Below, in pieces: positions 12,920 through 44,343 of a stretch of 64,000 nt of DNA (positions are counted from its first letter, which is position 1; each line of letters begins with the position of its first letter). Location of the stretch: NCBI RefSeq assembly GCF_002287075.1, contig NZ_NSKE01000013.1:1-64000 (forward strand), read 5' to 3'. The notes beneath the pieces are model-generated. The model had not been told where the DNA came from. It worked only from the letters and a program-made list of their open reading frames with translations, and did not search any database. The translations under genes and the position numbers were made by a program. This DNA comes from Fodinibius salipaludis (GTDB lineage Bacteria > Bacteroidota > Rhodothermia > Balneolales > Balneolaceae).

Positions 12920-14083
12920 ATGCAGCAGTACGATTATATCATAGCAGGTGCCGGTGCATCGGGACTTTCCCTGGCCTGGAAAATGCTGCACTCCCCCCTA
13001 TCAAAAAAAAAGGTTCTCATCCTCGATCAGTCTCTAAGCCCATCACATGATAAAACATGGTGTTTTTGGGATGCTGAAGCCCCTCCTTTTGCAGATCTGA
13101 TTTATCGTAAATGGACAAAAGCAGAAATAAGTATTTTTGGAACTCGATCCATCGAACACCTAAACAATTATACCTACTACTGTCTGCGAAGCGTCGACTT
13201 TCAGAACCACATTCTAAATCAACTTACGGATCACTCTCATTTCGATCTGCTTGAAGCCCCTGTCAAGGAGCTATCATTTGACGGTAGTAATCCCACATTG
13301 CATACTGATACAAACACCTTTAAAGCAGACTATATTTTCCAGAGTTGCTTTAATCCCTGGGATAATACTAACAGTCAGCCTCGATATCCACTCTTGCAAC
13401 ACTTCTTGGGATGGGAGATTACCACATCAAAACCGGTTTTTGATGATAGTTTTTTCACCTTAATGGATTTTGATAAAACATTTGAAAGTGGAATAGCTTT
13501 CATCTACCTGCTTCCCTGGTCTAAAAATTCCGCCCTTATTGAATACACTATTTTTTCAAATACCCTACTTGAAAAAAAGAAATACGAGGAAAAAGTATCC
13601 CTATATTTAAGTAACCGATTTAAATTAAAGCCGGTTGATTATAGCATTAAACGGAAGGAGTTTGGCAAAATACCGATGGAAGATCGTCCCCATAAACCAT
13701 GGTATAAACCCGGGATACTCAATCTCGGTACGGTTGGGGGAGTCACAAAACCATCTACCGGCTACACGTTCAAACGCATCCAAAAGCAGACCGATCAAAT
13801 CGTAGAAAATTTACTTTCGGGGAGGGATTTACAACCGCAACCTCCATCTAAAAAACGATTTAAAGCATATGACCTTTGGCTGCTACATATTATAGATCGG
13901 CATCCCAAAGATGCCCTTCAAATTTTTAATCATCTTTTCAAAAATAACTCTCTGGATGATGTTTTTCGATTTCTTGCGGAGGAATCATCTATTCAAGATG
14001 ATCTGAAAATTATGAGCAGCGTCCCCCATGCTCCCTTCCTGAGAGCCATTTGGAAGACGCGCAGCCGACTACGAGAGATCTAA
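12920..14083 (+). CDS. crtY: Lycopene beta-cyclase (CrtY type)
   Basis: 387 aa FAD-dependent flavoprotein that closes beta-ionone rings on lycopene. The N-terminal Rossmann motif DYIIAGAGASGLSLAWKML, the DKTWCFWD segment and GTVGGVTKPSTGYTFKRI (C-terminal substrate motif) are typical CrtY features. The length matches bacterial CrtY, not the heterodimeric CrtYcd type. It is the only carotenoid gene seen here; crtB/crtI must lie elsewhere. Its stop (TAA 14081-14083) overlaps the stop of the convergent AI-2E-type gene. Confidence 0.92.
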   Translation: MQQYDYIIAGAGASGLSLAWKMLHSPLSKKKVLILDQSLSPSHDKTWCFWDAEAPPFADLIYRKWTKAEISIFGTRSIEHLNNYTYYCLRSVDFQNHILNQLTDHSHFDLLEAPVKELSFDGSNPTLHTDTNTFKADYIFQSCFNPWDNTNSQPRYPLLQHFLGWEITTSKPVFDDSFFTLMDFDKTFESGIAFIYLLPWSKNSALIEYTIFSNTLLEKKKYEEKVSLYLSNRFKLKPVDYSIKRKEFGKIPMEDRPHKPWYKPGILNLGTVGGVTKPSTGYTFKRIQKQTDQIVENLLSGRDLQPQPPSKKRFKAYDLWLLHIIDRHPKDALQIFNHLFKNNSLDDVFRFLAEESSIQDDLKIMSSVPHAPFLRAIWKTRSRLREI

Positions 14084-40441: not shown

Positions 40442-41017
40442 ATGATTAATACCTTAAAATATCTTTCAGCTATTCTTTTGGCAGTCGCACTTATCGGATG
40501 CCAAAATGACTCAAACGAAGAAAACACACAGCAACAAGAAACTCAGCAGCAAGGACAGCTGGGACAAATGCAGCAAGAAGTTCCTGATGTTGATGTTTCT
40601 GATGAAGAAGCTGCCACCTTTGCAGATGCTGCAATGAGTGCACAACAGGTACAGATGCAGGCTCAGAAAAAAATGATGGGCATTATTCAGGAAGAGGGAC
40701 TTGATGTTCAAACTTACCAGAAAATTGCACAGTCACAGCAAATGGGCCAGGGAGATTCTACCCAGTTTAGTGAAAGTGAAATGAAAAAGTTTGATGCAGC
40801 TACCTCATCAATGGAAAAACTGCAATCTGAAATCAGAGATAGTGTAACAAAGGCTGTTGAAGATGCGGGAATGGAAATGCAGCGTTTCCAGGATATTAGC
40901 CGGGCTGCACAACAAGATTCTGCACTGCAGATGCAAATTCAGAAGCAGATCCGAAATAAAATGGGTGGCCAAATGCAGCAACAGCAACCTCAGCAGCAGC
41001 AACCGCCACAAAACTAA
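40442..41017 (+). CDS. DUF4168-type Gln/Met-rich lipoprotein
   Basis: 191 aa. Lipobox VALIGC (Cys ~20) followed by a Gln-rich linker. The helical DUF4168-like domain (~50-165) has two repeats of the form SDEEAATFADAAMSAQQVQM ... EEGLDVQTYQKIAQ and SEMKKFDAATSSMEKLQSEI ... DAGMEMQRFQDISRA. A Gln/Pro tail ends it. Anchored in the envelope; function unknown. Monocistronic with a strong terminator. Confidence 0.75.
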   Translation: MINTLKYLSAILLAVALIGCQNDSNEENTQQQETQQQGQLGQMQQEVPDVDVSDEEAATFADAAMSAQQVQMQAQKKMMGIIQEEGLDVQTYQKIAQSQQMGQGDSTQFSESEMKKFDAATSSMEKLQSEIRDSVTKAVEDAGMEMQRFQDISRAAQQDSALQMQIQKQIRNKMGGQMQQQQPQQQQPPQN

Positions 41018-41040: not shown

Positions 41041-41070
41041 AAAGTCCGCTGTAATTATTCAGCGGACTTT
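41041..41070. terminator. Bidirectional terminator between DUF4168 gene and histidine kinase
   Basis: AAAGTCCGCTG and CAGCGGACTTT form an 11-bp perfect stem with an 8-nt loop, followed by TTTTATTT. It serves both convergent genes. Confidence 0.88.
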
Positions 41071-41090: not shown

Positions 41091-42299
41091 TCAAGGCACT
41101 TTAACAAAAAAGGTTGATCCTTCGCCAACTTTACTTTCGACCTGGATATTACCGCCATGGGCTTCTACAATTTTCTTAGCAATAGCCAACCCCAGACCCG
41201 TACTTTTTTCTCCCGCAGTAGCCTCAACACTTATTTTTGCAAAGGGCACAAATAAATCATCGAGTTCCTCTTCGGGAATTCCCTGCCCTTCATCGTCAAC
41301 ATAAATAGTAATTGCTCCATCACTCTCCTCACAAATCCCCACTTCTATTTCTGTTTGAAGTTGTGAATATTTAATAGCGTTAGAGATTAAGTTGTCTAAC
41401 ACCTGCTGAAATTTATAGGCATCTATTGCTTTAACAACCGACTTATCAGGCAAGTTTGTAATAATAGAGATATTCTTTTTGGTGGCTGTCGGTCGGTTTA
41501 GTGATACAACTCGCTCGATAAACTCACCAATGTTCTCATCGTTTTTCTCCAAATTAATACTACCCGATTCTATAGCTGAAATATCCAGCATATCCTCAAT
41601 AATCCGCACCATATATTCACTGGACTCTTTAATCTCCTTTACCAACTGAAACTGATCATCCGTAAACATATTTTTCTCCTCATGGTCTTCAATCAAAAAG
41701 TTGGAATAATTCTGAATCAGCGTTAGTGGATTCCGCAAATCATGAGCCGCCATCCCCAGCATTTGATTTTTCAGCTCATTCAACTTTTCAAGCTCGGCTG
41801 TCCTTTTTGTAAGCTTCCGTTGCATATTGGCCAACTCATTATTTAGTCCGCTCATTTCATCATACATCCCCCACTCATCCTCTTTAGATTCTCCGGGCTT
41901 CTCTTGTTGCTCCTTCATATAGGCCCGCAATCTATTTACCGACTCGTTATTCATTTCCATCAGACCATTTAGAAACTGCTCGGTATCATCCGGATTGTCT
42001 GTTCCAATTAACAAGTTTTCACCATCAATCCGTATGCCAGAAAAGCCAAATAAGATAGTTTCGTCATCATTTGTTACATGCAATCCCCAGTTATAAGCTA
42101 CCTCATTTGTTTTAATTCGTTCAAGAAACTGATAGGCTTTAGAGATGCTGTCACTATCAAGGCCATCAACGAAAGTAGCCTGATCATCTATATTAAATGT
42201 AAATAGGTCATATGAATCATGAATCACCTTCTGCAGTATTCCATTATCATTTACAACAATAGCAATTCCTTTAGGAACGTTTTGGTTCTGTTTGATCAA
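41091..42299 (-). CDS. Sensor histidine kinase with PAS-like N-terminus
   Basis: 402 aa, soluble. A PAS-like domain (~10-120) and a coiled-coil linker (~140-190) precede HisKA (MAAHDLRNPLTLIQNYSNF, phospho-His ~200) and HATPase (N-box DNLISNAIKYS, G1 DDEGQGIP, G2 STGLGLAIAKKIVEAHGG). No receiver domain and no response regulator follow. Its start overlaps the stop of the B12-binding sensor gene by 4 bp, so the two are translationally coupled and probably form a sensor-kinase pair. Confidence 0.9.
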   Translation of the reverse strand: MIKQNQNVPKGIAIVVNDNGILQKVIHDSYDLFTFNIDDQATFVDGLDSDSISKAYQFLERIKTNEVAYNWGLHVTNDDETILFGFSGIRIDGENLLIGTDNPDDTEQFLNGLMEMNNESVNRLRAYMKEQQEKPGESKEDEWGMYDEMSGLNNELANMQRKLTKRTAELEKLNELKNQMLGMAAHDLRNPLTLIQNYSNFLIEDHEEKNMFTDDQFQLVKEIKESSEYMVRIIEDMLDISAIESGSINLEKNDENIGEFIERVVSLNRPTATKKNISIITNLPDKSVVKAIDAYKFQQVLDNLISNAIKYSQLQTEIEVGICEESDGAITIYVDDEGQGIPEEELDDLFVPFAKISVEATAGEKSTGLGLAIAKKIVEAHGGNIQVESKVGEGSTFFVKVP

Positions 42300-43357
42300 T
42301 TTGCGGTTAATTTATTTGCGGTTTCAATTGCATCATCTGCAGATTCTGCCCACCCATCAGCACCAATTTTTTTCCACAAGTCAGGTATCATTTTAAAAGG
42401 ATATCCTCCTACGATGATTTTTACATTATCAAGCTCACTTTCGTCTCGCAATGTTTGAATCAGGTCTTTGGCTGCGCTGATGTGTAACGGTATAGTAACC
42501 GAAATCGCCAATACATCGGCATTTTTTTCCTTAACAGATCTTATTAAATGCTTATCAGGTATATTCGCCCCCAAATAATGGGTATCCCACCCTTCCATCT
42601 CAAAGAAATCAGTAACCATTCTGATACCGATTTCATGAAGCTCATCAGCTACTGAACATGCAACCAATCGTTTATCACTTTTTTCCATTGCAAATATTTT
42701 GGGATACAACTGCGACATAATCAGCTGTGTTGCAGCGGTGCAATAATGTTCTTGGGCCACCATAATTTGATTCCTCTGCCAAAGGGCTCCAATCTCATAC
42801 TGCGTTTTTTGAAAAATATGCTCGTATATATCTTTTATCGATACTCCATCATCTACCAATTCCTCAATAAGAACTGCCGCTTTCTTACGCTTACCGGCCA
42901 GCAACAAATCCAGATAATTCCGGGCCTCATCAGTGAGAGGATCATCAGGATCAAAAAATGTTATCGGCTCTTCATCACTACTTTCTATAGAGGAGAGTCC
43001 ATCATTAATAAACGTAACCAGAATTGCTGCTTCTTCTTCCGGCAACACCTTTTTTATTGCTTCCCGGATAATTACAATATTATCAACGAGATCACCACTG
43101 GGAATATCCCGTTCTCGCAGCATCGTCCGTGCCCAGCCCAAGTAAGTATTAAACAGTTCTTTGCTATCAACACAAACGGCCTGCTCTAAGTAATCGAGGT
43201 GGTAAATGGTATCCTCATAGCACTTTTCCCGCCCCTCTTCACCATAGCACTCATCCAGCTCCGGATGGCGTTCAAAATGCATTGCCGTTACTAACTCAGC
43301 CAGCTCCTGTTTATGAGCTTTCAGTTGTTGTACAACTTTACGTTCAGATCCTGGCAT
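42296..43357 (-). CDS. B12-binding sensor protein with photoreceptor-type W-x9-EH motif
   Basis: 353 aa. Residues ~1-125 are a helical domain I cannot assign. Residues ~140-220 are a four-helix cap (B12-binding_2) with W193, nine residues, then E203-H204, the W-x9-EH signature of adenosylcobalamin light sensors such as CarH. Residues ~228-350 are the Rossmann cobalamin-binding domain with ELHEIG (lower-ligand His241) and KIIVGGYPF. No DNA-binding or methyltransferase domain is present. Coupled to a histidine kinase (4-bp overlap), it likely senses light or B12 and signals through it. Confidence 0.85.
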   Translation of the reverse strand: MPGSERKVVQQLKAHKQELAELVTAMHFERHPELDECYGEEGREKCYEDTIYHLDYLEQAVCVDSKELFNTYLGWARTMLRERDIPSGDLVDNIVIIREAIKKVLPEEEAAILVTFINDGLSSIESSDEEPITFFDPDDPLTDEARNYLDLLLAGKRKKAAVLIEELVDDGVSIKDIYEHIFQKTQYEIGALWQRNQIMVAQEHYCTAATQLIMSQLYPKIFAMEKSDKRLVACSVADELHEIGIRMVTDFFEMEGWDTHYLGANIPDKHLIRSVKEKNADVLAISVTIPLHISAAKDLIQTLRDESELDNVKIIVGGYPFKMIPDLWKKIGADGWAESADDAIETANKLTAN

Positions 43358-43367
43358 AGTTAGCTCT

Positions 43368-43667
43368 CTAAGAAGTTATATGATCAAAATAATTGAGCGT
43401 AAAACTACGTTTTACCATCTTTAACCCTTTGGGGATATTCTGATGCGATTCGCTGCGATGATTGTCGTGCCAATAGTGAAACGATTCCTCATCCTCCCAA
43501 TGGGTAATCAGCCAAAACTCTGCGGGATTATCCTTTGGTGAAATAACATTAAGTGTCACAAAGCTATCGGCATCCTCCACCAGCTCAGGACGTTTCCGAA
43601 AGGCCTCTCGCACTTCATCTTCCATATTATTACGCCCTTCAAATCTACTAATAGCCGTAAAGCCCAT
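43368..43667 (-). CDS. Antibiotic biosynthesis monooxygenase-family protein (HmoA/IsdG-like)
   Basis: 99 aa from ATG (in-frame TTG at 43679 is an alternative). Dimeric ferredoxin-like ABM fold: MGFTAISRFEG, then NPAEFWLITHWEDEESFHYW and a His-rich helix (HDNHRSESH). Such proteins degrade haem or oxidise aromatics, or act as small enzymes of unknown role. It lies 10 bp upstream of the B12 sensor, first gene of the operon. Haem degradation is possible but the key Asn/His pattern cannot be confirmed by eye. Confidence 0.75.
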   Translation of the reverse strand: MGFTAISRFEGRNNMEDEVREAFRKRPELVEDADSFVTLNVISPKDNPAEFWLITHWEDEESFHYWHDNHRSESHQNIPKGLKMVKRSFTLNYFDHITS

Positions 43668-43821: not shown

Positions 43822-44343
43822 CTACAGAGTGTCCCTTAATAACCATTCTGGAATAGAATTATCCTCTCGCTCGTTATTCCAGATTATATTAATAATCCAC
43901 CAGCGATTCTGATCATACACCAATTGAACACTATTTACTCCGCGTCGTGTTACTTCTCCATCTTCAGCCGACCTAATTTTATAAGCTGTCTGAACCGTAG
44001 CCATCTCTCCAAATTGAAATACCTCGCGTCCAATCTCCTCTTCCCAGAATCCATTCTCCTTAAAGTATTCATCATTGCGGTCGATATACTGATCAGGTGT
44101 CAATGATACATATCGCAAAGAGCCATCCTCAGCCTTACTTATCGTCCCCATATTTGCTCCCTCTTTATATAGCGAAGAAAACCGATCCCAGTCACGCTGG
44201 CCAGCCGGACCGGAAATCACATCGTACAGAGCCGTAATTATTCCATCAATACTGCCAACATCTTCTTCATTAGCCTGTTGTCCGTAAGTAACACTGCTTA
44301 AAGTTAGTAGGAAACTTAAAATTGAACCGTAAAAAACTTTCAT
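43822..44343 (-). CDS. Secreted NTF2/SnoaL-like protein
   Basis: 173 aa from MKVFYGSIL, whose signal peptide (cleaved near TYGQ) marks this ATG as the start rather than the ATG 60 bp upstream. The mature part has a cone-shaped NTF2-like pattern: DVISGPAGQRDWDRFSSLY, then GEMATVQTAYKIRS and VNSVQLVYDQNRWWIINIIW. Fold only; substrate unknown. It is upstream of the ABM/B12/kinase operon on the same strand with a 142-bp gap, so co-transcription is uncertain. Confidence 0.7.
   Translation of the reverse strand: MKVFYGSILSFLLTLSSVTYGQQANEEDVGSIDGIITALYDVISGPAGQRDWDRFSSLYKEGANMGTISKAEDGSLRYVSLTPDQYIDRNDEYFKENGFWEEEIGREVFQFGEMATVQTAYKIRSAEDGEVTRRGVNSVQLVYDQNRWWIINIIWNNEREDNSIPEWLLRDTL

Follow-up and report, generated by a model that had tools for sequence, protein, structure and literature searches.

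A stretch of 64,000 nucleotides from Fodinibius salipaludis (contig NZ_NSKE01000013.1, referred to here as the window) contains a compact operon, the middle gene of which is, judged from its sequence, that of a photocobilin (a photoglobin-B12 protein) of the globin-first group. It is flanked by the gene of an ABM-domain protein and by that of a PAS-histidine kinase, and the reading in which a photocobilin sensor works with this partner kinase and owes its bilin to the ABM protein is considered reasonably probable as a whole; the domains, residues, operon structure, conservation and gene fusions on which it draws are all read from sequence. The gene arrangement given in the sequence-only reading, with three minus-strand genes in the order ABM protein, B12 protein and PAS-histidine kinase, a gap of 10 bp and an overlap of 4 bp, was reproduced in every detail. 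The ATG at 43667 is the most likely start of the ABM gene, because homologues start there, and the terminator-like hairpin beyond the kinase gene would mark the end of the operon (Table 1). Promoter-like matches at the locus were fewer than the shuffle expectation. An Rfam scan of the whole window returned no RNA family at gathering score, and thus no cobalamin riboswitch was found in it. Upstream of the module, 43822-44343 (-) encodes a secreted 173-aa protein of no Pfam family, and an ORF of similar size occupies the same place in two other loci (L005 and L006). On the other side, 40442-41017 (+), convergent with the kinase gene, encodes a Gln-rich DUF4168 protein with a lipoprotein-like signal.

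Table 1. Positions of the genes, domains and key residues of the module in the window
Feature	Position	Strand	Remarks
ABM gene	43368..43667	-	99 aa from ATG; a TTG 12 nt upstream is also open
B12/globin sensor gene	42296..43357	-	353 aa; order globin, B12 cap, B12 Rossmann
Phycobilisome-type globin (photoglobin) domain, residues 7-116	43010..43339	-	PF00502, 30.2 bits (cut-off 22.2)
C46-Y-E-D49 motif	43211..43222	-	Cys at the phycobiliprotein attachment position; Asp equivalent to SasPcob Asp270
W75, equivalent of bilin-contacting SasPcob Trp296	43133..43135	-	Invariant, 77/77; role from PMC10979010
B12-binding four-helix cap, residues 146-217	42707..42922	-	PF02607, 56.3 bits
W193-x9-E203-H204, AdoCbl photoreceptor signature	42746..42781	-	Conserved in 77/77; aligns with SasPcob W61/E71/H72
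B12-binding Rossmann domain, residues 231-344	42326..42667	-	PF02310, 79.8 bits
E239-L-H241-E-I-G244 (ExHxxG), lower axial ligand His241	42626..42643	-	H241 and G244 in 77/77; E or D at 239
H270, equivalent of SasPcob His137 (contacts the other protomer's bilin)	42548..42550	-	Alignment
PAS-histidine kinase gene	41091..42299	-	402 aa, TTG start
PAS domain, about residues 5-104, probable sensor docking site	41988..42287	-	AF2; PAS-fold matches
Coiled coil around LNNELANMQRKL, residues 149-176	41772..41855	-	Nearly invariant in the kinase family
H186, HisKA phospho-acceptor	41742..41744	-	Invariant in the kinase alignment
Terminator-like 11-bp stem	41041..41070		3' of the kinase gene, between convergent genes

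The sensor and its homologues

All three Pfam domains of the 353-aa sensor (Phycobilisome, B12-binding_2 and B12-binding) scored above their cut-offs. The globin domain had been absent from the description in the sequence-only reading; it aligns in sequence to allophycocyanins and photocobilins, is all-helical in the AF2 model, and its presence at the N-terminus of a B12 protein is the reason for considering the latter a photocobilin. The W-x9-EH and ExHxxG motifs that had been pointed out were both found, and so was the lack of a DNA-binding domain in the Pfam scan, the N-terminus being the globin. An AdoCbl light sensor, as first proposed, is still the best-supported reading, but not in the form of a CarH-like sensor made of B12 domains only. 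A CarH-like transcription factor was discarded, as no MerR-type DNA-binding domain was found in the Pfam scan. Among proteins of solved structure, the photocobilins 8J2W, 8J2X and 8J2Y are nearest in sequence, and structure prediction agreed: the AF2 model (pLDDT 93.8, pTM 0.89) gave its best structural matches with 8J2Y and 8J2W (Z 26.7 and 26.6, 1.8-2.0 Å), matches that span the B12 part (residues 139-353) only, given that aligners follow sequence order and the domain order differs.

A single scan provided 80 homologous loci, 77 of them full-length and 75 with sequence downstream. Residues W75, W193, E203, H204, H241 and G244 are invariant in the 77 full-length proteins, D49 is kept in 74 and Cys46 in 21. 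The W-x9-EH signature appeared in 4 of 1,045 unrelated ORFs of at least 150 aa, so its occurrence by chance has a low likelihood, and only a single one of the more distant homologues lacks it. In SasPcob, biliverdin is bound by Asp270 and Trp296 together with His137 from the other protomer, and the B12 site comprises Trp61, Glu71-His72 and His108 (PMC10979010). By alignment (numbering offset 6), the former correspond to D49, W75 and H270 in the F. salipaludis protein, where all three biliverdin-contact residues checked are therefore present, and the latter to W193, E203-H204 and H241. Position 270 is His solely in close Balneolota relatives and mostly Ser elsewhere. In the globin alignment, C46-x-x-D49 falls on the allophycocyanin chromophore motif CLRD; the photoglobin motif has been given as CXQD (PMC10151467). 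W193 is followed by Gln, which SasPcob also has there, and not by the His that serves CarH as a second ligand, so no bis-His light state of the CarH kind would be expected.

That the protein might be a corrinoid shuttle of a methyltransferase system is very improbable. It shows a generic NCBIfam similarity to MtgC/MtbC and shares its fold with 3EZX, one of its structural matches; nevertheless, the score of 78 bits lies far below the curated cut-offs of 350-370, the signature is replaced by F and LI in the corrinoid protein 4JGI, and no methyltransferase family was detected among the scanned neighbours in the window or among the most frequent neighbour families elsewhere. The MtgC/MtbC assignment was thus rejected on family score and signature, and the homologues did not turn out to be constant members of a methyltransferase pathway, an outcome that the sequence-only reading had named as fatal to its proposal.

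Sensor homologues were found in Balneolota, Bacteroidota, Acidobacteriota, Chloroflexota, Planctomycetota, Paenibacillus and several archaea, among other phyla. Those in archaea and anaerobes (Methanolobus, Lokiarchaeota, Bacteroidales, Thermodesulfobacteriota) bear on a different explanation, in which the protein would use B12 chemistry to sense the level of cobalamin, oxygen or the redox state instead of light, and would relay this to the kinase. Many anaerobe homologues, some of them archaeal, are accompanied by neither an ABM protein nor a canonical haem oxygenase, and a supply of bilin, or of light, is doubtful for them. Against this explanation, which we regard as improbable, count the invariance of W-x9-EH in the 77 close homologues, anaerobes included, and its presence in all distant ones but one, as well as the fact that the characterised proteins combining B12 and globin domains respond to light (PMC10979010). 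Methanolobus and Lokiarchaeota have photocobilin genes in which the AdoCbl signature is complete (L063, L030, L064, L073 and L084), and the two genomes checked (L030 and L063) contain no typical ABM protein and no canonical haem oxygenase.

A distant globin-B12 group (L133, L134, L136-L138, L153-L156, L159, L161, L163, L165, L168, L169, L171, L173 and L176) was also observed, many members of which have Trp at position 46 and lack Asp49, in a region where the alignment is uncertain. Neither a kinase nor an ABM gene was found in the flanks fetched for this group, which may be a subfamily that differs in its ligand or its output.

The partner kinase

The product of the last gene had been described as a PAS-histidine kinase, and this held: HisKA (59.4 bits) and HATPase_c (93.4 bits) were identified by Pfam and the PAS domain by predicted fold. 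No Pfam PAS model matched the N-terminus, which AF2 predicts as a PAS fold with fold matches up to Z 12.4 and PpsR at 11.7. The linker that follows contains an LNNEL-x-N-x-QREL sequence, nearly invariant in the alignment of the kinase family.

A kinase gene lies next to the photocobilin gene in 68 of the 75 homologues with downstream sequence, across bacteria and archaea. This figure comprises 67 ORF-based cases, plus three kinases found on recheck in another frame (L027, L033 and L049), minus two Adhaeribacter cases that have only the PAS/coil part; the distance to the sensor gene was 60 nt or less in 61 of the 67 ORF-based cases. Among the members of the kinase set, HATPase was present in 64/64, HisKA in 59/64 and a receiver domain in 8. 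In four Hymenobacteraceae (L010, L012, L021 and L043; Adhaeribacter, Rufibacter) what is left of the partner is the PAS domain and the coiled coil, with no kinase domains. The best evidence that separate sensor and kinase cooperate comes from Planctomycetota, in which single chains of about 800 aa (L148:160-2544, L149:1315-3726 and L150:148-2544) combine photocobilin, histidine kinase and receiver: a complete photocobilin (residues about 5-350) is followed by the LNN(E/S)L coiled coil, the very segment found in the separate kinases, and then by HisKA, HATPase and receiver domains.

The proposal that output passes through the coupled kinase is, in view of the adjacency and of these natural fusions, the best-supported reading, and it is quite likely that the sensor regulates the kinase, control of the kinase being here what we infer. 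The statement that no response regulator is adjacent proved right for the flanking genes scanned within the window, none of which carries a Pfam receiver domain, but does not extend to other genomes, where 19 of 55 genes flanking the module encode receiver domains. Because of these flanking receivers, and because some partner kinases are hybrids, the cognate response regulator is likely an orphan encoded elsewhere.

The ABM protein and the bilin

The ABM protein (PF03992, 39.5 bits), previously taken for a generic monooxygenase, is placed instead by profile matches near the IsdG-type haem-degrading enzymes, and may plausibly serve the bilin site. A profile built from 26 operon ABM copies matches the HmoB, MhuD, IsdI and IsdG structures in the PDB, the top match being the uncharacterised TT1380 (1IUJ). 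The HmuQ model was matched by all 26 copies, with that of the window staying below the NCBIfam HmuQ equivalog cut-off (25 bits versus 130). The Asn-Trp-His triad of the IsdG family is incomplete: Trp and His are kept as invariant W70 and H79, and the catalytic Asn is replaced by an invariant Ser11 (numbering from the TTG). The IsdG-family members tested need all three residues (PMC5557675).

Of 59 related genomes, 6 carry this ABM type, and each of these has a full photocobilin; the 51 genomes that have no full photocobilin are all devoid of the ABM type. In 199 Acidobacteriota, both strong ABM matches adjoin a photocobilin. Two loci scored as lacking ABM on the basis of ORFs (L052 and L055) proved on recheck to have the gene. 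The two distant photocobilins L160 and L164, with a C-x-E-D motif, come with a diverged ABM gene at an overlap of 4 nt. Two Acidobacteriota loci (L135:2499-3797 (-) and L140:461-1459 (+)) encode, beside the photocobilin, a fusion of the ABM domain with a PAS-type output protein, the output of the L135 fusion being GGDEF. Decayed ABM genes lie beside intact photocobilins in L006 (upstream of 6001), L092 (1306-1479) and L019 (5827-5979), which retain the sensor and Cys46; hence, ABM can be lost.

Presence of ABM was also compared with the residues of the bilin site in 119 sequences, three of which, with ABM relics, were set aside. Cys46 was found in 23 of 35 sequences with ABM versus 2 of 81 without, and D49 in 35/35 versus 55/81. 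The significance of the raw Cys46 counts (p about 2e-13) was not accepted, since relatedness leaves seven supported contrasts; on a tree built without column 46 these gave 5 to 0 (p about 0.06), a first, smaller set having provided only three supported contrasts. That ABM presence tracks Cys46 is, at the sequence level, suggestive only. Adjacency to photocobilins, the association with Cys46, the diverged overlapping copies and the fusions to PAS outputs are the grounds for assigning the ABM protein to the sensor module, either as an enzyme or as a subunit.

As an enzyme, it would form or load bilin from haem, for which the chances appear about even. No canonical haem oxygenase was found in the F. 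salipaludis genome, and one was present in only 3 of 30 photocobilin genomes; these three have no typical ABM protein beside the sensor, although one of them (L034) has a diverged ABM there. The alternative, in which the ABM protein has a structural or regulatory role as a subunit of the same photocobilin-kinase light sensor (for instance, as a haem- or bilin-binding adaptor) and bilin comes from elsewhere, is a possibility of lesser weight. The invariant Ser in place of the catalytic Asn, the fusions to PAS-GGDEF and PAS proteins and the loss of the gene where the sensor persists would fit such a role, whereas the invariant Trp and His of the triad, the profile relation to haem-degrading enzymes and a genome devoid of canonical haem oxygenase would not.

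It is somewhat unlikely that the sensor uses AdoCbl only, responding to green or blue light with a globin that is a relic or has a structural role only and carries no bilin in the cell. AbDPcob, whose globin is similar, is a weak binder of biliverdin and still responds through AdoCbl (PMC10979010), and 27 of the 30 photocobilin genomes have no canonical haem oxygenase. Such a sensor is difficult to reconcile with the retention of Asp49 and Trp75 in nearly all close homologues, with Cys46 and H270 in the F. salipaludis protein, and with the tracking of Cys46 by ABM.

Proposed mechanism and related systems

The photocobilin reading can be formulated as follows, its chromophores and photochemistry being taken by analogy from characterised relatives. 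The sensor would bind AdoCbl in its C-terminal B12 domain, and the genome encodes a cobalamin adenosyltransferase, so the cell can make this cofactor. A linear tetrapyrrole would be bound in the N-terminal globin, where Cys46 may attach it covalently. When either of the two pigments absorbs light, the Co-C bond would break, the adenosyl group would leave, and the B12-domain dimer would then change or separate; in characterised proteins the bond is broken by light, directly or via excited bilin, and the B12-domain dimer rearranges (PMC10979010). With no output of its own, the sensor would act on the neighbouring kinase, probably via the PAS domain and the conserved coiled coil, changing autophosphorylation and phosphotransfer to an unlinked response regulator. 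The ABM protein would most likely form or load the bilin from haem, in the way that BphO supplies bilin from haem to bacteriophytochromes. Several observations weigh against the whole: the ABM protein is devoid of the required Asn, independent ABM-Cys46 changes are few, three relatives keep the sensor and Cys46 with a decayed ABM gene, homologues exist in anaerobes and archaea, AbDPcob binds biliverdin poorly, and the flanking genes scanned carry no receiver domain. A more elaborate version, in which the IsdG-like enzyme, with Ser for Asn, makes a dedicated bilin, perhaps other than biliverdin, that becomes covalent at Cys46 and with AdoCbl tunes the kinase in trans, is put forward tentatively and with low expectation. 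If true, a photoreceptor would here obtain its chromophore in a way that is new, and the two-component B12/bilin photosensory route would be the first to be demonstrated.

Photocobilins are a known family, described in 2022-2024, including their prediction as signalling bundles. The layout had been thought new; the sensor type is not, but no description of the three-gene arrangement was found. In the literature searched, which did not include Schneider et al. 2022, photocobilins and histidine kinases appeared together only in an optogenetics review, unlinked, and no ABM or IsdG gene was mentioned with photoreceptors of this kind. In that 2022 work (CSBJ 20:261), pairs of globin and B12 domains were reportedly predicted to sense light as units linked to domains of signal transduction (the photoglobin-B12 bundle), a likeness to the module described here; the work may describe the kinase neighbourhood. 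We know of no IsdG-type partner described for the bundle, nor of any established cellular target for stand-alone photocobilins. The 2024 description shows only their capacity to act through protein contacts (PMC10979010). The operon itself, the fact that it is conserved in both bacteria and archaea, and the fusions that occur in nature point to the PAS-histidine kinase as a photocobilin target, which is directly testable. Were the ABM protein to make bilin, this would explain how a second pigment is loaded in organisms without canonical haem oxygenase, and would provide a compact gene set for green/red light control in bacteria.

With SasPcob and AbDPcob (8J2W/8J2X/8J2Y; Zhang et al. 2024, PMC10979010) the sensor shares a globin and a CarH-like B12 domain in one chain and the W-x9-EH and E/DxH motifs, together with the biliverdin-contact Asp, Trp and His of SasPcob. 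It differs from them in its Cys at the bilin site, in an output that is a separate PAS-histidine kinase and not a fused GGDEF domain, and in the IsdG-like gene of its operon; the domain order is reversed with respect to the crystallised photocobilins, with the globin first, an arrangement mentioned, from models, in the same work. CarH and LitR have in common with it the AdoCbl-binding signature and fold, but their MerR DNA-binding domain is absent here. AppA and AerR, acting with PpsR, are a precedent for a B12-type domain that acts on a PAS partner, and both the AppA/AerR and PpsR types were among the fold matches of the module proteins. The likeness to AerR/AppA with PpsR/CrtJ is one of analogy and fold only, as their partner is a DNA-binding repressor and not a histidine kinase. 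The bphO-bphP bacteriophytochrome operons also have a putative haem-degrading gene beside a bilin photoreceptor kinase system, but in F. salipaludis there is no GAF-PHY sensor, and an IsdG-like ABM protein takes the place of the PF01126 haem oxygenase.

Finally, the window contains a lycopene cyclase gene at 12920-14083 (+), so the organism probably makes carotenoids, whose synthesis is a possible light-controlled output.
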